From Chytriomyces cf. hyalinus JEL632 (Eukaryota > Chytridiomycota > Chytridiomycetes > Chytridiales > Chytriomycetaceae): a DNA stretch of 64,000 bases. The stretch's first letter is position 1. Each line of letters opens with the position of its first letter. This document shows, piece after piece, positions 13,030 to 35,711 of the stretch. The notes beneath the pieces were generated by a model. That model did not search any database, was not told where the DNA came from, and worked only from the letters and a program-made list of their open reading frames with translations. The stretch lies in assembly GCA_025435555.1 (NCBI GenBank), contig JAIWWG010000006.1, positions 62,001 to 126,000 of the forward strand. Direction: 5' to 3'. The position numbers and the translations under genes are program-made.

Positions 13030-13377
13030 TTTTCTCAAATTTCTCAACTTTTTTTTTCTTCTTCGCAATTTTCTTTGCGCCGTTGTGTCCGAAACTAGAC
13101 CTGCTTCGAGTTTAAAACGGCGGAATATTTTCTTCAAACATATTCGCTCCAGTATATGCTTATGATGGATGGACCATTGAGAAACAGGATAATCAAACTA
13201 GCTCGTCGATTGTTTCGATAAACTTCACCCTTTGTTCAAGCATCTCTCCAGAACGCGCGATGCACTCATTTTAAATGAAGGCTGTCTCCTGATGTTCGCA
13301 CAAATAAAAATAATAAAGAATGTGCCCAACGTGGAAATCAGCACTTTGTCCGCGGACCAGCTGGGAACAAAAGCAAG

Positions 13378-13450
13378 CGCCCAACGTGGGGGTCGAACCC
13401 ACAGCCTTCAGATTAAGAGTCTGACGCTCTACCGATTGAGCTAGCCAGGC
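13378..13450 (-). tRNA. tRNA-Lys (anticodon CTT)
   Basis: 73 nt. It starts GCCTGGCTAGCTC, the anticodon loop is CTCTTAA giving CTT, the T-arm is GTGGGTTCGACCCCCAC, and the acceptor stem pairs GCCTGGC with GTTGGGC. It has no intron. A TTTT tract lies about 5 nt downstream as Pol III terminator. Identical in sequence to the copies at 13646 and 28506. Confidence 0.97.
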
Positions 13451-13645
13451 GGATGACACTAAAAATGTTGACGTTTTATTGTTATTAAATGACGGAGAGA
13501 GATGGGCAGTTCTTCAGCTGTCTGAGGCAACGATAGCATTTCATCAACTCGGCAACTCAGCGCAAACAAAAGTGGAAGAAGGCTCAGCTGGAATTGGTGG
13601 AATGCAAATATTATCAAAAATGTATGAAAATTCGGAGAATCATGC

Positions 13646-13718
13646 GCCTGGCTAGCTCAATCGGTAGAGCGTCAGACTCTTAATCTGAAGGCTGTGGGTT
13701 CGACCCCCACGTTGGGCG
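13646..13718 (+). tRNA. tRNA-Lys (anticodon CTT), inverted neighbour copy
   Basis: 73 nt, identical to the gene at 13378-13450 and transcribed away from it; 195 bp separate their 5' ends. All arms pair, the anticodon loop is CTCTTAA, and a TTTT terminator follows at about 13724. AATCATGC directly precedes position 1. Confidence 0.97.
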
Positions 13719-15228
13719 CATACTTTTGTTCTTTGGGTTGTGTGGATCGACTGGTATTTTTTGTCTTGATTAGTTTCATCTGCAGTTGGAAGCATGTCCG
13801 TCATTGTCGCGGGTGGTGCGGGCATGAAGGTGCGATCAATAATCTGGGATATGTGATGAGCAATCATTGTTAAGCAGTGCAATACATGCGATTGAAAACG
13901 ACAAGGGTGGGTACCTGCTATCAGGATCAGGGTGGTAAATTGGTCTGGTTTTCCTTGCTCGGGGTTCACGGCATCAATGGTATTCATGCCCCGTGCCCTT
14001 TAATCCCCGTGTTAAACTACGACGGGATGCAGAGGAAGATGAGGAGGGGTGTGGAAGATTTGAAAGGTGCTTCTTGAATTGTGTTGGGCAAGGACACTGG
14101 TTGACTGGGAATACTGAGCCGGACATGAAAGTGAGGGGGCGGCGGAGATCTGTCGAGTTGGGATGCGGGCTGCGATGGATGCGAGGGCGTCGGTGATGGT
14201 GCTGTTGCGAGGCGAAGTCACGTTGTGTGTTGTGAAGGGACGGACCAATTTGTTGTGGGGGTGACAATTAAAATTTGAGAACATGTGAGCAATTTCCAAG
14301 TTTATTGGAAGGTGCGAGAATACTTTCGAATCGTGTGTGGGATAAGAAAACGACCGCCATTTCACGGACTGAAATCCTGGGCAGCCCCTTCCATTGCTTG
14401 ACACGTGCTAGAGTCGCGTGTCACTCGATATGTGCATGTCCAGGCACTGTGTCCGGCACGCTGTTTACCTATTGCACGTTATGTCCAGGAAGCGTTATTA
14501 TTGCGTTATTGTGGTCTTTTATTCGATAGAGTGACTTTGAAACGATTCGACCGTGTTTATCCAGGCTGATGTCAAATGAAGTCTTTCTTGGATTGGTCGC
14601 ACCCAACGTGGGTCGATACGCGCCTGTTGTGTATGAATGTCATTTTTACGGAGGAGCGATAGAACATCGAGTAAGAAGGTTCTTTGATTTGCAGTGACGA
14701 CTGGACTAGACAAAAGCGTTCAGGACTGTGAGAGGATCCACATGCGATAGCAATAATTGCGCGTGAGGGGGCAAGTTGCAGGAGCTTTCTGTGTACGCGC
14801 AACTGGGGCCAGCAGCAAAGAAGGATGAGGTTGGCGATGGAGATTTGTATTGACGATGCGGTGGAGTCGCTCAATGGTGCATTGTATGGCTGATGCAGTT
14901 GTTGTTCATGGTCAGACTGAGACTGAGGGGGGTGTCGGAAAGCAGAGCGTGTAGCAGGATGGGCTGTTGTGGAGACCGTTTGTTCTTCTTGTCACGGCAA
15001 ACGCCTTCACTTTTTTTCAATCCGCAAATTTTCAGGCTCGAAGACTGGTCCTCAAAATAGAACAAAATGTGTGTTAAATACAATTCGCGCCCTTTTTTAT
15101 TCCATCTAAGGTATTCTTTTCAAAGCATAAGGGGGGGGGGGGGGGGGGGGAGAGCATGGCAGCTGCATGCAAACACCCCCCACTCTAAACCCCAACAAAA
15201 GAGCATCGCGCATGGATTACTACTCTCT
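13719..15228. other. Gene-poor stretch
   Basis: 1.5 kb between the tRNA pair and the oligopeptide-transporter remnant. Minus-strand frames at 14012-14404 (Ser/Thr/Pro rich) and 13870-13990 could be exons of a small unknown gene, but no domain or reliable splice chain supports this. A G20 tract lies at 15131-15150. Confidence 0.4.
15131..15150. repeat. G20 homopolymer
   Basis: Twenty consecutive G on the plus strand, just beyond the 3' end of the transporter pseudogene. A similar, longer run lies in an intron at 18502. Confidence 0.95.
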
Positions 15229-28505: not shown

Positions 28506-28578
28506 CGCCCAACGTGGGGGTCGAACCCACAGCCTTCAGATTAAGAGTCTGACGCTCTACCGATTGAGCTAGCCAGGC
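28506..28578 (-). tRNA. tRNA-Lys (anticodon CTT), third identical copy
   Basis: 73 nt, identical to the genes at 13378 and 13646. Its 5' side is occupied by a Ty3-type LTR starting 8 nt upstream; only AATCATC separates them. Unlike the other copies no run of four T follows within about 30 nt, so termination may be weak. Confidence 0.95.
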
Positions 28579-28585
28579 GATGATT

Positions 28586-28909
28586 TGTTACGGAAGTAGT
28601 CAGGAGCTCGATTGCAGCTTCAAGACTGGGAGAGGACTTGAGAGGAGTTGAGAGAGTTAAGAGATTATTGAGAGACTTTTTTTTCTTTATTGAATCAAGA
28701 AAGGCCTTCTTAAATAGCCTTTGTGGCAAATGTAAGGAAGACAACAGTGGCACTTGAAATGATAGAAAAAGTAATAACGAAGACGCGATCCTGTCTGGGG
28801 AGTGTTAGAGTGTTGGAATTGCTGTGAGTAAATTTTGTGTCTGTGGGAATTTTGATTGACGTGGCGAAGCTTCTGGACGTGCGTGACGGAATCTGTAGAT
28901 TACGTGACA
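28586..28909 (-). repeat. 3' LTR of the Ty3/gypsy element
   Basis: 324 bp, TG...CA ends with imperfect inverted termini (TGTCACGTAATC... and ...CCGTAACA read on the minus strand). A purine tract, CTTGGAGGCGGG on the minus strand, abuts its inner edge as polypurine tract. It is nearly the same sequence as the solo LTR at 35308-35628, apart from small indels and a few substitutions. Confidence 0.92.
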
Positions 28910-28919
28910 CCCGCCTCCA

Positions 28920-31900
28920 AGAGCGTACGCGATGAAAAAGGGGAGTGAACTTGGCGGAGGTTGGTCTTGCTTGACGCGTTGCATGAGTTCTGGAGTCGCG
29001 TTTAACCAACAGTTGTAGACAGGGTGGTGGTCTTTCCATTGGATGAGGACTTGCTTGTGACCGTCGAGAATACGAGAAGAGAGGACTTTGTCAATGACGC
29101 GTAAAGCAATGGGCTGGTTGTCAAGAGGATGTTTGGCTGTGTCGAAGAAGTAAGGTCGAAGTTTTTCAGGGTGGAAGACAGGGTGGACTCCCCAATCTGT
29201 GGGAAGAGCTAGCTTGCAGGACGGGACAGGTCCGACATGTTTGGTTTTGAACTTGGGCTTTTATGATATTTATTATCTTAAGGTGAATCACAACACATCA
29301 AAACAGCTCTCCTTATATACATTTTTGGCTCCCATAAAATCTCATTGGGCTTTCTTCAGTTTCACTTTTGAGCCACCCTTTTTTCCATTTCATTTGTCAT
29401 TTCATTTCTACAAATGAGATTTGATGTGAAATCATCCACTTTTCATTTGCAGTTTGAACTTGCTGAAAAAGTGAGTCAGTGCTGACAATTCAGTTTTTCA
29501 AGCTGATTAGTCATTCATTACTGGCTGACAGTTAAGGCTTGTCAATTATAATTAATATCCCCACACTGGGTAAGGTTATTGATTAATTGCTTGACTGGCT
29601 TGACATATTAGTCATACAAAAGTAGCAATAGAATACTTTTCCAAGTTGATTTCTATTTCTTCTTCTTCTGCATATTTCTCTATAAAGATCAGAAGATAGC
29701 TGCATGAAGTTGGCAGCAGTGTGGGTTGAACAAGTGACCTGTGGGTCTTTGGTCGCGAACCTTAACAACTAAGCCAGAATCATATAAATTCCAAACAATT
29801 ACTTTCAACCATGTTTATGCTTGATCAGAGCAAGAATAGTTGAAATCATGTAGTAGAATAAGCTATCATCATCTACAAGTCTGCACCCTTTATAGAATAC
29901 GAGTATTCGTGTATTCATTCCTTGTTATAGTATCTACTAGACGTTTACCCTACTCAATGTCATAATTCATGCCCATATGTATTGAGGTTGGTGGAATGGT
30001 GAGGTGCGTGACTCTTCTTTATCTGCAGTAGAGAATAAGAGATGAATCAGGGAGAATTAACCTTTATTGAAGTGAACAGTGCTCCATCACTTGAGACTGA
30101 TATTCAACACGACAAGTTCGATGATCTTGTAGGGGCCGGAGTACTGTTCAGAGAGCTTGTTGGTCTGTCGGTATCAAAGGTTGGGAGGCTTGAATTCCTT
30201 GGCTGAGACAAGAACTAGATCTCCAACTTTGAAGGGGGATTCGAGGCACTTGCAATTGGCAATGGCAGCGTACTTGTCTTGAGAGTCACGAACTCGATCC
30301 TTGGCAACTTGGTATTCTGCGCGGATGTCCTTGATAGAGAGGGAGGTGTCAGGCAGGAGGTTGATGTTGATCATGGAGCGAGGGTGGCGACCGTACTCGA
30401 GGAAGAAAGGTGTGTAACCAGTACTTGAATTGACTGTATCGTTGATCCCAAATTCGATCTTGGGTAGGTGGATGTCCCAGTCGTCTTGGTAGGGAGCAAC
30501 AAAGTGTCGTAGTGCTTGGAGGATCCAGTCGTTCTTTTGTTCTGTCTGGCCGTCAGTTTGAGGATGGGAAGAGCTGGAGATCGTCAGCTTGATTCGGAGG
30601 GACTTGCAGAGTGCTTGCCAAAAGTTGGAGGTAAACTTGGTGTCTCGATCAGAGATGAAATGGACTGGAATACCATGGTGCGGGAAGATGTGAGTTTCGA
30701 AGAGATTGGCAATATCGCGTGCAGTTGAGGTGGTGTGGCATGGGATTAATCTTGTTTGTTTGGTTCCAGAGTCGACAACTACCATGAGGGCATCGTATCC
30801 TGACTTGGTGAGAGGGAGCTTGGTCATGAAGTCCATGGAGCAAGTGTGCCATGGGAAGGGCGGGACGTCGTGAGGCTAAAGGAGTCCATAAGGAGCGTGG
30901 CGTGCTACCTTGAGGCGTTGGCAGTTATCGCAGTTCTGGCAGAGTCGCTGGACATCGCGATGGAGTTTTGGCCAGTGGAAGTATCTGGTGAGGCGTTCGG
31001 AGGTGCGTTCCCAGTTGTTGTGGATTGCTGGACCGTAGGAGTGAGCTTTCTTGAGTAGCGAGTTGTGGAGAGGGGCTGGAACGTAGAGTCTTGCGTGGGT
31101 TTTGTCAACGTAGTGGAGGAAACCGTTGCGGAGTCGATATCTTGAGATCTGAGGGAGGAGGTGCTTGGGAGCCTTGGATGGGTCGTGGTCGTAGGTTTCT
31201 GGGTCCAGTGGGTCAACTAAAAACTGCGCTATTTCTAAGAACTGGGGGTCGGTAGTGTTCATGTCCTTGATATCGTTCATGAGGTTATCAGTGATGGTCA
31301 GGGTCGTGGTGTTGAGCAGGAGGTAAGATTCTGGGATCTGGACGGTAGAATGGACGGTGTTTCCTTGGAGGTTGACTTGAACGGAGGCATCAGTTGCGAA
31401 TCTTCTTCTTGACAGTGCGTCAGCAATGGTGTTCCACTCCCCCGGAGTCCACTGGATCTGGAAATCGTAGGCCAGCAGGTCGGCTAACCAGCGATGGTGG
31501 ACAGGGCGGAGCTTGGGTTGGGTGAGGATGTGGCGAAGGGACTGGTGGTCGGTAAAGGCGAGGATTTGATTGCCATGAATGTAATGGCGAAAATGGTTGA
31601 GGCATTCAACAAGAGCGAGGATTTCGCCCATGTAGGGGTGGTACTTGGATTCTTCTGGCTTGAGCTTGCGGGAGTAGTAGGCAATGGGCTGGTCAGTTCC
31701 GGTAGAGTCTGGTTGGGCGATGTAGCCACCAATGGCGCGGGCGGACCAGTCGGTGTAAAGATGGACAGGAAGTTCAGGGTTGAAGATGGCGAGCAATTCT
31801 GGAGAGGCGAGGATCCGTTTGATGTTGATGAAATGGCTGCGGGCTGTGTCATTCCACTTGTCGGAGAAGGAGGTAGTCTTGTGGTCACGGAGGATGTCTG

Positions 31901-33365
31901 AGAGAGGTGCAATGAGGGCGGCGTGGTGCTTGATAAAGCGATGGACGGTGTTGGCGAGTCCCAGGAAGGAACGAAGTTCGGAGTAGTTGGAAGGTTCTTC
32001 AAAGTCAGTGATGGAGCTGGTTCTGGATGGTAGGACAGAGATGGAACCTCTAGCAATCCAATAGCCAAGGTATTCGAGTTCTTGCTGGAGGAAGGAGCAC
32101 TTGGAAAGGCGAACGTGGAGCTTGTTGGCTTGGAGGCGTTGCAGTACTTGGTCTATGTGCTTGAGGTGGTCTTCGAGGGTCTCGGAGAAGATGAGGAGGT
32201 CGTCAATATAGACAGTGAGGAAGGCGTCAATGAAGTCACGGAATATGGAGCCGAGGGTAGTCTGGAATACGGCGGGAGCATTTGCAAGGCCAAAGGGCAT
32301 AACGACCCATTCGTAGTGGCCATACTTGGTGCGGAAGGCAGTCTTGTGGATGTCGGATTCTTGGATGCGGATCTGGTGGAAGCCGGAGGAGAGGTCGATC
32401 TTGGTGAAGTACTTGGCTTTGGAGAGGCGGTCGAGGGACTTGAGGATGTTTGGGAGGGCAGCGCGATTCTTGACGGTGAGTTTGTTCACGGCGCGGTAGT
32501 CGAAGACAAGGCGTAGTTTATCCTTTTGCTTGACAAAGAAGACAGGAGCTCCGTAAGGGGAAGTGGAGGCTCTGATGCGTTGGTGCTTGAGGAGGTAAGT
32601 GATTTCTTCTTGGAGGGCCTTGAGTTCTGGGGCGCTCATTGGGTAGATTGGTCGGTAGGGAGGGCTGGAGTTAGCAGAAGGATCTACATCGATCTTCATG
32701 TCGGTAGGTCTGGATGGCGGTAGGCCCTCGAATGGGGCAAAGACATCTGGATATCGGTCCACGATCGTCTGGAGGTTTGGCGGGAGGGAGGTACGTATAG
32801 ATTCATCGGCTCTGTCACTGCCGGACGTAGTAACCTTTATCTTTTGAGGCAGGATGGCGCCGAGGAAATCGTCGGGCTGAAGGGTCTGGAGGAGATTGAT
32901 GAATTGCTGCGCGGTAAGGACTTCCGGAGGGGAACGCGGAGAACGGCATTTCCAGCTGTGTGGACCAATGCGGACATGGTTTGTTGGCCAGTCAATGGAG
33001 GGATTGTGGGCATCGAGCCAGTCTTTTCCGAGGATCAGGTCGTATGCGAGGTCAGGGACAGTAGTAAAAGAACGGTAGTCTTGGAAGGAAGTATTGTTTA
33101 TTTTCACTTGTAGAGGCTTGGTACGCTGGCCTTTAACAACAGAACCGTTGGCGAGCTTGATCTTGCAGGCTTGAGGAACGAGGGACTTGTTTTGGAGGAA
33201 CGGTAGGCTTGAGTTGATGAAACTTGGATTGGCTCCAGAGTCAATGAGGATGGAGATGGGGTGTTCATTGATGGTACCTTGGCAGACGAGGAGGCCGGGA
33301 CTGTCGGCGTAGGGTGTGGAGTGCTGGGTCTGGACTTGGAACAGGGGAAGCTTGGGACAGTGGAC
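28920..33365 (-). pseudogene. Ty3/gypsy pol polyprotein, disrupted
   Basis: Protease active site ILIDSGANPSFIN near 33240. Reverse transcriptase has FTKIDLSSGFHQIRI, WVVMPFGLANAP and the catalytic YIDDLLIF. RNase H has LHLYTDWS-type HLYTDWSARAIGGYI and FTDHQSLRHI. Integrase has CDNC in the zinc finger, then VVVDSG, ISDRDTKF and HPQTDGQTEQ (D,D,E triad), then SGPYKIIELV. A chromodomain-like end follows (VIDKVLSSRI, VLIQWKDHHPV). Defects: TAG at 30878-30876 after APYGLL, where Gln is usual; TGA at 30176-30174 after KPPNL, where Arg fits; the nested LTR between 29238 and 30109; and loss of gag. Both stops are explained by C-to-T changes (CAG to TAG, CGA to TGA). Confidence 0.92.
29238..30109. 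mobile_element. Solo LTR (872 bp) nested in the integrase region, with 5-bp target duplication
   Basis: An AT-rich insert with ends TGTTTGG...TTCAACA on the plus strand, flanked on both sides by CGACA (29233-29237 and 30110-30114). Removing it and one duplicate restores the integrase reading GPYKIIELVGPVPSCKLALP. It has no coding sequence of its own. TG/CA ends and a 5-bp duplication fit an LTR-retrotransposon solo LTR left by LTR-LTR recombination. Its sequence is unrelated to the Ty3 LTR here, so it belongs to another family; the superfamily cannot be told from the LTR alone. Confidence 0.88.
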
Positions 33366-33489
33366 TTGAACGGAAGGATAATTCCTTTACGCAAGTGTTG
33401 TTGCGGTGTGGCTTGGCCCTTACCGATCTGGGAGTGGCAGAAGTCAAAAGCGTGGTTCATGAGGACAACCATGCATCAGGAGAAAGCAC

Positions 33490-35307
33490 GCAGTATTGAC
33501 TGACCGCACGCGCCGCATTGTCGCGAAAACGACGTTTGTCAGAGAAACTATTCAAGAACGCATCATCAAGTTTGTGTTTACTCCGACAAAATGCCAAAAA
33601 CAGATGGACTCATCAAGGCTAAGGGACCAGGACAGTTCGAGAAGTTCCAAGACTCGGTCAGGATTCAAGCTGTGGTCGGGTGGGGGGGTTGTTGGAATCC
33701 GCAACCCCGGTGGTGAAAATTAATCGTTGTTTTTACAGGGTATTCTTCACGCCTGTCAATCACGCAACAAATGCTTTGCGGTACCAAACTGCCGAGACGG
33801 GAGTTAACTACGTAAGTACACTCCAAAAGAAGGGTTGGTGATGTGAGTCAGTTGAGTTTATCAAGACAGAGAATGCAAGGTGATATGCAGGATATTGGTC
33901 CAGACAGAAGAGACCTCAGATAAACTTGTTTCCAATAAATGAAGGCTTGGCTGTGAGAGGATTTTGGGTCTTGGTGCTGGTTGCTCATTTGATTGACTCT
34001 GCTCTACGAGGCTACGGATTATACGTCTGTTTGGGTGGTGCAGACTTTTCTTGTGTAAATATGGATTTGGCAGAGGCAGAGGCGGCGGTGACTGGCATAT
34101 TGACTTGAGTGGAGACCCGCTTTTGAAGGCAATGTGGTACAGCAATTTTCAGAAGACGGGAGAAAAGTGACCAAATCAGACATCAAGAACGTGCACATAC
34201 GCCAAGACAAATCGGTATCGACACGCGCTTGGTTTCTGTCACTCTGACCGCAGCTGCGGGGCACCTTCGGCTTTTCTGCGTGCGCCTGCCACGGGTGAAT
34301 AAGCTTCCGTTGCTGCTGCTCCAGACCCATAGTCCCTCATTTGATTGCAAACACAGTCGTCAGTTGTCATATTATTATATACTTTATTCTTGTTCAGTTT
34401 ATGCGTAACAGCAGATCTAATTCAAGGTATGTTCAGATGCTTCGTGTTCTACGCACATTTCCGTGCGTGCATGGGAGAACGACCCGCACAGCGTATGGAT
34501 GGAAGTTGCAATCCACCGTCGCGGTCTTGGATGCCATCTTCCTGCTGGCACCATGCTTGAACTGTTTACAACTCTCTCCCCGGATATGTTCCAGAGTATG
34601 TGCAGGCGGAGGCAAGGCAAGACTGGGTGTCCTCACTGACACCAACACGCCGTTCTGGATATACTTGTGCACGAGAATGGGCTCGGGTGAAGGAGGCGGG
34701 GTTGCTGGTGCGAGTGCAGGTGCTGTTAAGGGTTGTAGACGTGGAGCAACTGCTGCTGGGTATTGTTGAAGTGGTGGGGCAGAGCACAGCGCATTGAAGG
34801 CCACGCGTAGGTCCGCCAGCGAGAGCGCCTCCTTGTCCAGGCTGAGGGGCTCTACGCAGAACGGCAGTTTGTGGGTGGGTGAGCGAAGTAGTGGATGCAT
34901 TTTCAGGTTGTTTGATTCCAGACCAGTGCATTTAAAATATCAGTGATGGAGCACGTGCCCTGAAAAAGGGCCGGACCCTCCCAAACGACCATCAGCCCCA
35001 CAACCCAGCAACAACCACCCTCTTCACACAACGCAGAACTCTTGGACCCTCACAGCCACGCTAGGCTGGGCTAATGTAATGCCGTGGGTGTCTCTACTAC
35101 GGCAAGAAGAGCAGTGCCACTTCTGAAAGACCTTCATCCAACCTGCTCTGATATCGTTGTGCAACACAGGTAGTTTTGGTTAAATTATTCAATACTGTCT
35201 CTGTCAAGAAGGAAAAGACGCGCGTTTCACCTAGCACAGACTCGTACATTTGTCATTTGGGCCGACCAAAAATAGGATAAAATTTACAAGAAAATTCGAC
35301 GAATCAT
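33490..35307. other. Unresolved region between truncated retroelement and solo LTR
   Basis: On the plus strand a possible spliced gene exists: an exon 33740-33811 bounded by TTTTTACAG and GTAAGT (encoding VFFTPVNHATNALRYQTAET) can join in phase to 33901-34108, which includes a hydrophobic GFWVLVLVAHLIDSAL. An ATG at 33591 (MPKTDGLIKAKGPGQFEKFQ) may be its start, but the first junction does not fit in phase. On the minus strand 34433-34900 is a Pro/Ala-rich open frame starting MHPLLRSPTHKLPFCVEPLS. No family was recognised, and no gag was found. Confidence 0.3.
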
Positions 35308-35628
35308 TGTTACGGAAGTAGTCAGGAGCTCGATTGCAGCTTCAAGACTGGGAGAGGACTTTGAGAGGAGTTGAGAGAGTTAAGAGATTATTGAGAGACT
35401 GCTTTTTATTGAATCAAGAAAGGCCTTCTTAAATAGCCTTTGTGGCAAATGTAAGGAAGACAACAGTGGCACTTGAAATGATAGAAAAAGTAATAACGAA
35501 GACGCGATCGTGTCTGGGGAGTGTTAGAGTGTTGGAATTGCTGTGAGTAAATTTAGTGTCTGTGGGAATTTTGATTGGCGTGGCGAAGCTTCTGGACGTG
35601 CGTGACGGAATCTGTAGATTACGTAACA
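35308..35628. repeat. Solo LTR of the Ty3/gypsy family, with AATCAT target duplication
   Basis: 321 bp with ends TGTTACGG...ACGTAACA on the plus strand, near identical to the LTR at 28586-28909. Both flanks read AATCAT (35302-35307 and 35629-35634), a 5-6 bp target duplication, so this is an independent insertion and not the missing 5' LTR of the element at 28.6-33.5 kb. It ends 8 bp upstream of a tRNA-Ile gene. Confidence 0.92.
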
Positions 35629-35636
35629 AATCATCA

Positions 35637-35711
35637 CCTCCGTTAGCTCAGTTGGTTTAGAGCGTGGTGCTAATAACGCCAAGGTCACAGGTTCGATCCC
35701 TGTACGGAGCA
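35637..35711 (+). tRNA. tRNA-Ile (anticodon AAT)
   Basis: About 75 nt. The D arm is GCTCAGTTGGTTTAGAGC, the anticodon arm GGTGCTAATAACGCC giving AAT, and the T arm ACAGGTTCGATCCCTGT. The acceptor stem pairs CTCCGT with ACGGAG, but position 1 is C opposite C72, a mismatch where G1 is expected. It has no intron, and a TTTT terminator lies at 35714. The LTR insertion lies just upstream. Confidence 0.88.

Follow-up and report, generated by a model that had tools for sequence, protein, structure and literature searches.

What directs a retrotransposon to within a few bases of a tRNA gene, and what is recognised there? The question is raised by two long terminal repeats (LTRs) in a 64,000-nt stretch of the genome of Chytriomyces cf. 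hyalinus JEL632 (contig C199:62001-126000; this whole stretch is hereafter the window), one ending 7 bp before a tRNA-Lys gene and the other 8 bp before a tRNA-Ile gene. A sequence-only reading of the window had taken them for Ty3-type insertions at a conserved motif, AATCAT(C), probably the initiation site of RNA polymerase III (Pol III). We surveyed the genome assembly, 37,782,357 bases in 242 contigs, for related elements and for the sites that they occupy.

The insertions in the window

The features of the two occupied sites, and of two unoccupied tRNA genes in the same window, are the following.

13378..13450, minus strand: tRNA-Lys(CTT) by Infernal, unoccupied, upstream sequence ...GTCATCC
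13646..13718, plus strand: tRNA-Lys(CTT) by Infernal, unoccupied, upstream sequence ...AATCATGC
28506..28578, minus strand: tRNA-Lys(CTT) by Infernal, with an LTR 7 bp upstream
28579..28585, minus strand: gap between this tRNA-Lys and the LTR, AATCATC on the tRNA strand
28586..28909, minus strand: 3' LTR of a family A Ty3/gypsy element, by LTR annotation
28910..33378, minus strand: internal part of the same element, with polypurine tract, integrase, RNase H and reverse transcriptase
35302..35307, strandless: left target duplication of the solo LTR, AATCAT
35308..35628, minus strand (coding sense): solo LTR of family A, oriented opposite to the tRNA-Ile
35629..35634, strandless: right target duplication of the solo LTR, AATCAT
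35637..35711, plus strand: tRNA-Ile(AAT) by Infernal, with an LTR 8 bp upstream

Infernal and a check of the sequence place the LTRs, gaps, tRNA genes and duplications where the earlier reading had them, including the AATCATC common to the two gaps and the AATCAT on either side of the solo LTR. The 8-nt gap before the tRNA-Ile reads AATCATCA, and the gap at 28579..28585 presumably contains both the 5-bp target (28581-28585) and the Pol III start. The element behind the LTR at 28586 carries an inserted repeat (repeat E, see below) and is devoid of its 5' LTR and gag: its alignment to the family A copy L009 ends at window position 33378, equivalent to L009 position 3614, and gag in L009 (2420-3550) lies before that end. 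The two unoccupied tRNA-Lys genes stand head to head (window 13365-13731) in 123-nt arms that are 86% complementary.

Four related families and their sampling

A search with the pol region of the window element returned 61 matches in the genome: copies of its own family (A) at 95-100% identity, a group at about 80-85% (B), another group at about 60% (C) and a few more at 58-72%, among which a match on contig C168 (68%) yielded a fourth family (D). LTR copies were scored for the best 40 of 53 candidates in A, the best 40 of 75 in B, the best 40 of 56 in C and all 25 in D; 15 of the 25 D matches were fetched, the other 10 being short or of 73-77% identity. Twenty of the 61 pol matches were fetched as pol-centred stretches, together with the window, C65 and part of C168, and other pol copies were covered at most at their LTR ends. 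The fetched stretches hold 160 annotated LTRs or LTR pieces.

Among named relatives of the family A polyprotein, the nearest comes from Chytriomyces confervae, with 95% identity across the part compared; one of the host proteins encoded in the window has 86% identity to a C. hyalinus protein. Copies L009 (A) and L029 (C) encode, by Pfam, RVT_1, RNase H, zinc-binding and rve integrase domains in this order, the rve domain of A scoring 30.6 bits, slightly below its cut-off of 32.6, and L009 also has the gag domain PF03732; the elements thus have the gag and the reverse transcriptase-RNase H-integrase order that define Ty3/gypsy elements (Metaviridae). They likewise show the TG...CA termini, TGG... 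primer site, polypurine tract and 5-bp duplication expected of Metaviridae LTRs, as observed in the LTR ends and in TTGGTAGCATCGG and GGAGGCGGG, which adjoin the LTRs. No relatives were found in viral contigs. The 3' end of pol overlaps first the polypurine tract and then the 3' LTR (L009:7190-7214, and likewise in L016 and L029), and the resulting C-terminal tail is almost invariant among these three copies. We also observe a fifth LTR family of about 346 bp, beginning TGTTAGAGAATAGG..., which occupies positions 135-480 of L116 (C2:595380-596070) beside a tRNA-Lys and is met again alongside LTRs of the other families.

Position and orientation at tRNA genes

Fifty-eight LTR ends of families A-D lie upstream of tRNA genes, and 57 of them fall 6-11 bp from the mature +1, with a mode of 8: one at 6 bp, nine at 7, 21 at 8, 18 at 9, six at 10 and two at 11, the sole outlier, at 15 bp, being an old D copy. 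The tRNA limits are those of Infernal except at five sites, where ARAGORN limits, possibly off by one, were used. No LTR end was seen at a tRNA 3' end among the annotated A-D LTR sites, and with the tRNAs called by ARAGORN all 57 LTR ends within 25 bp lie on the 5' side. Seventeen tRNA isotypes are targeted, and one further tRNA (C237) is weak, at 31.9 bits, and unnamed. The converse test, centred on the 63 scored Rfam tRNAs of 1,887 first-look candidates, found 7 of the 63 with an LTR end of families A-D in the 20 bp upstream and none with one in the 20 bp downstream, where about 0.01 would be expected.

Insertions occur in both orientations in all four families, the numbers in the same and in the opposite sense to the tRNA being 6 and 10 for A, 15 and 6 for B, 3 and 13 for C, and 1 and 4 for D. 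Uncorrected for testing, the departure from 1:1 has p=0.45 in A, p=0.08 in B and p=0.02 in C, and B differs from C with p=0.0025; the preferences of the two are opposite, B inserting mostly in the tRNA sense and C mostly against it. The distance of LTR copies to the nearest tRNA, proposed earlier as a check, comes out strongly in favour of insertion where the Pol III start is predicted, with either orientation and in a fungal lineage far from yeast.

When LTRs less than 6.5 kb apart are linked, 80 clusters result. This linking may merge separate insertions: the two LTRs of the window form one cluster, and a B LTR whose outer ends are unseen (C156:165971) falls with a C LTR at a tRNA-Gly. A tRNA gene at an LTR end was initially recorded for 57 clusters, to which two were added later: at C173:75 kb, where the LTR end was placed by element length, a tRNA-Pro was found 9 bp away, and at C2 a tRNA-Lys adjoins the fifth-family LTR with a D element stacked behind. 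Altogether 59 clusters stand at tRNA genes, eight at tRNA-like sequences with box A and box B, two at the hot spot of repeat E and one (C173:259 kb) at a B box alone, judged by eye. Ten were not judged (C123, C138, C186, C194, C202, C204:166 kb, C213:175 kb, C46, C8:94 kb and C90:325 kb); no tRNAs occur at their visible outer ends, and no LTR end was present where the missing ends of C123 and C202 had been guessed from element length.

Other genes were sought at the same places. Rfam gave no match to other genes in 20 loci beside clusters without a tRNA (19,597 bases), and in a second set of 20 loci only tRNAs exceeded their family cut-off, matches to MIR4371 and Plastid-ycf2 being weaker than the cut-off and taken as chance. 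The assembly has no Rfam match to 5S rRNA, and none of six U6 matches on two contigs has a listed A-D LTR adjacent, as judged by coordinates only. A U2 snRNA gene is flanked by two tRNA-Leu genes at L020:1531-1709.

Target duplications, stacking and leader sequence

A duplication of at least 5 bp flanks 52 of 70 testable insertions. Full-length LTR pairs have a duplication of exactly 5 bp in 29 of 37 cases, and solo LTRs one of 5 or 6 bp in 23 of 33 (one of these solos, C187:199981, is the end of a full-length element) and of 4 bp in four more; a duplication of at least 4 bp is absent at 14 of the 70. As a control, mismatched flank pairs agree over at least 5 bp in 27 of 4,830 cases. The duplicated 5-mers vary between sites. 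LTRs are also stacked: the spacing between members of 25 adjacent pairs is 5 bp in 12 and ranges from 1 to 10 bp. An inserted LTR replaces all upstream DNA except the last few leader bases, and yet the site is used again, which implies that the recognised feature is either part of the gene itself or assembled upon it.

Is there, then, a shared sequence at the targets? AATCAT occurs in 3 of 57 tRNA leaders, and wherever a leader column comprises 20 sequences or more its information stays at or below 0.38 bit; higher values are reached at -10 and -11, with only 8 and 2 sequences. In 16 of the 57 the last CA begins at -4 and in another 14 at -3, a count made without a formal control. What the targets share is their position relative to the internal promoter and not a leader motif. 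Of the two parts of the earlier proposal, the conserved motif falls by the rule set for it in advance, namely that AATCATC should recur upstream of other tRNA genes, and tRNA targeting survives under the same rule, most of the sampled LTR clusters standing at tRNA genes.

Insertions at tRNA-like promoters

A correctly spaced pair of boxes A and B was found in 44 of 57 flanks on the tRNA side and in 7 of 103 other outer flanks; its background is 5 in 32,000 shuffles and 72 in 127,700 window positions, real tRNAs included. Seven clusters have both boxes at the right spacing without a scored tRNA, and C25 makes an eighth, its boxes lying beyond a short LTR remnant and being judged by eye. One recurrent target of this kind is repeat E, a copy of which sits in the window element.

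29233..29237 and 30110..30114: 5-bp duplication CGACA on either side of repeat E
29238..30109, minus strand (promoter strand): repeat E, 872 bp, TGTT...AACA, inside the pol region of the family A element
29723..29731, minus strand: box B of repeat E, GTTCAACCC
29766..29776, minus strand: box A-like sequence of repeat E, TGGCTTAGTTG
29786..29791, minus strand: insertion hot spot of repeat E (within about 2 bp), empty in the window copy

In other copies of repeat E, insertions of B, C and D elements coincide to within about 2 bp (C134, C164, C173:315 kb, C219, C59 and C7); where the side towards the tRNA-like +1 is visible, they lie 7-9 bp ahead of it. The clusters at C59 and C7 end at the hot spot with just the upstream half of the repeat visible, and the other end of C59 has no pair of boxes A and B; a single insertion may account for both C173:315 kb and C7. 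Elements of A, B and C have entered a second repeat, likewise with a tRNA-like promoter, at the corresponding position in the following sites.

L056 (C178): insertion in the second repeat
L085 (C226): insertion in the second repeat
L091 (C25): insertion in the second repeat

In addition, a solo LTR of family A at C174 abuts an apparent tRNA relic. Infernal at E 0.5 does not call the tRNA-like stretches at C164, C173:315 kb, C178, C219, C226, C25 and C174, so these targets are taken as promoters by box sequence and spacing only.

Repeat E has 176 first-look candidates in the genome. It appears structurally to resemble the LTRs of Helenus (TRIMp3), judging by its termini and boxes: it has the TG...CA ends, a 5-bp duplication in two of three copies checked at both ends (CGACA in the window and CAGAC at C168, with none at C156), and internal tRNA-like boxes A and B like those described for fungal Helenus LTRs (PMC10886601). 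A Helenus element would be short, with two LTRs enclosing a primer site and a polypurine tract. The 872-bp unit has no internal direct repeat, and the 40 copies scored, out of 176 candidates, include no two on the same strand less than 10 kb apart, only single units being seen. The main text of the Helenus paper contains no word beginning "chytrid" (PMC10886601).

The integrase

Among solved structures, sequence and fold searches alike give the integrase of Ty3 (7q5b) as the best relative of the chytrid integrase. The sequence match (query 9-379) stops before the chromodomain. The Foldseek whole-chain match to 7q5b_B covers 436 columns at an rmsd of 19.9 Å, and a second structural comparison matches mainly over model residues 73-359, so that the correspondence of the chromodomain depends on the Foldseek alignment. 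A fold of the C-terminal domains by themselves (three sequences; pLDDT 42.9) was too poor for use. The chromodomain profile PF00385 scores 14.4 bits in A, 15.7 in B and 13.3 in C against a cut-off of 25.1, and the C-terminal chromodomain above the Pfam cut-off that marks a Chromovirus is accordingly lacking in these three families; among the matches listed of 598, it was found in none of the 13 nearest relatives and in 92 of 107 others. We read this sequence pattern as an integrase that ends in a diverged chromodomain. An integrase tree of 124 sequences, with few named relatives and weak sampling, puts Ty3 on a long branch beside P0015 (support 0.907) and does not group it with the chytrid clade.

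Discussion

What could bring elements of four families to the same position at so many genes? That they target Pol III promoters is near certain. As to the means, we propose that the integration complex of this Ty3/gypsy clade docks on the Pol III pre-initiation complex. TFIIIC would read boxes A and B of a tRNA gene or tRNA-like promoter and place TFIIIB just upstream, and TFIIIB would hold the integrase, whose SH3 domain at the C terminus and diverged chromodomain would make the contact. The staggered cut, 5 bp wide and with its midpoint about 6 bp ahead of the mature +1, would then fall at or just before the predicted transcription start. Because the internal promoter would survive such an insertion together with the last 6-11 bases of the leader, nearly the same base could be used again and LTRs would pile up. 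The contact between integrase and TFIIIB is inferred by analogy: in Ty3 the SH3 domain is described as touching TBP and the vestigial chromodomain as touching Brf1 (PMC8632968), and the fold match suggests that the chytrid integrase may likewise bind Brf1/TBP. Taken as a whole, Ty3-like docking on TFIIIB placed by TFIIIC is, in our judgement, very probably the correct explanation.

The closest competitor places the tether on TFIIIC or on Pol III itself, which we regard as unlikely. Ty1 is described as tethered by Pol III (PMC10050235), and the repeats with boxes A and B that are hit here are expected binders of TFIIIC; Ty1 sites, however, are reported to spread over about 1 kb (PMC5911963) rather than being fixed to a few base pairs, and the nearest solved relative of the chytrid integrase is that of Ty3. 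Direct recognition by the integrase of a DNA motif, be it AATCAT or a Pol III initiator, would account for the AATCATC at both window sites and for the CA at -4 or -3 in 30 of 57 leaders, and is nevertheless highly improbable in view of the rarity of AATCAT, the low information of the leader columns and the many different duplicated 5-mers lying at a near constant distance from +1.

Even less credit is due to the idea that insertion is broad and that selection retains the copies near tRNA genes. It can draw on the argument that tRNA genes are safe sites (PMC5006619), but it sits poorly with a window of 6-11 bp in which nearly the same base is reused, with insertions at non-genic tRNA-like promoters, and with the youth of many copies, 21 of 41 C LTR matches (query included) being identical to the query over 192 bases. 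Multiplication of ready-made tRNA-plus-LTR units by duplication or gene conversion is the least probable reading: two ends at repeat E that each lie close to the end of a contig, C173:315 kb and C7, may be the halves of a single insertion, but a comparison of leaders and duplications finds isotypes, leaders and duplicated 5-mers to differ between sites.

The targeting is of a known kind, that of Ty3, Tj1, Ylt1 and DGLT-A, here in Chytridiomycota. Ty3 of Saccharomyces cerevisiae is likewise a Ty3/gypsy element with the reverse transcriptase-RNase H-integrase order that inserts at Pol III starts in both orientations (PMC8632968, PMC5911963), and its integrase has an SH3 domain and a diverged chromodomain (PMC8632968). 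Its insertions are placed about 12-15 bp before the mature tRNA (PMC5006619), against a mode of 8 in the chytrid, so the geometry is not identical, and the chytrid site is moreover common to at least four families. Tj1 of Schizosaccharomyces japonicus, a Ty3/gypsy element of 5,003 bp with a 5-bp duplication, inserts 5-11 bp before the mature 5' end (PMC4600332), which is essentially the chytrid distance, but is reported to keep one orientation at all Pol III genes, where the chytrid families use both. Tyl3, Ylt1 and Tyl6 of Yarrowia and Tca8/beta of Candida are also described as Ty3/gypsy elements with LTRs upstream of tRNAs (PMC5911963); they belong to Ascomycota and were compared by description only. 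Among dictyostelid Ty3/gypsy elements that target tRNA genes, DGLT-A inserts about 15 bp upstream and is described as having no chromodomain, and Skipper-2 shares the diverged chromodomain and inserts downstream of tRNA genes (PMC5006619).

Among the matches listed in the open-access literature we found no earlier report of tRNA-targeting Ty3 elements in chytrids, and in the literature consulted for comparison such aiming at Pol III starts has so far been described from Ascomycota and social amoebae. The point that looks new is the use of Pol III promoters within other repeats as landing sites. We give roughly even chances to the view that these promoters, lying inside other mobile repeats, are genuine TFIIIB-loading sites in vivo that serve as Ty3-like landing pads at the distance found at tRNA genes, with families differing in docking orientation. 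If so, mobile elements would prey on mobile elements through Pol III, and their insertions would be a natural record of active promoters.

To our knowledge, tRNA start sites in Chytridiomycota seem little studied. With several families and identical young LTRs, this chytrid is a rich case in which to ask whether such aiming is old in fungi or evolved more than once, along with a diverged chromodomain. The routes by which integrases reach TFIIIB can be compared in it, and its insertions give a genome-wide view of which Pol III promoters are active in a member of Chytridiomycota.
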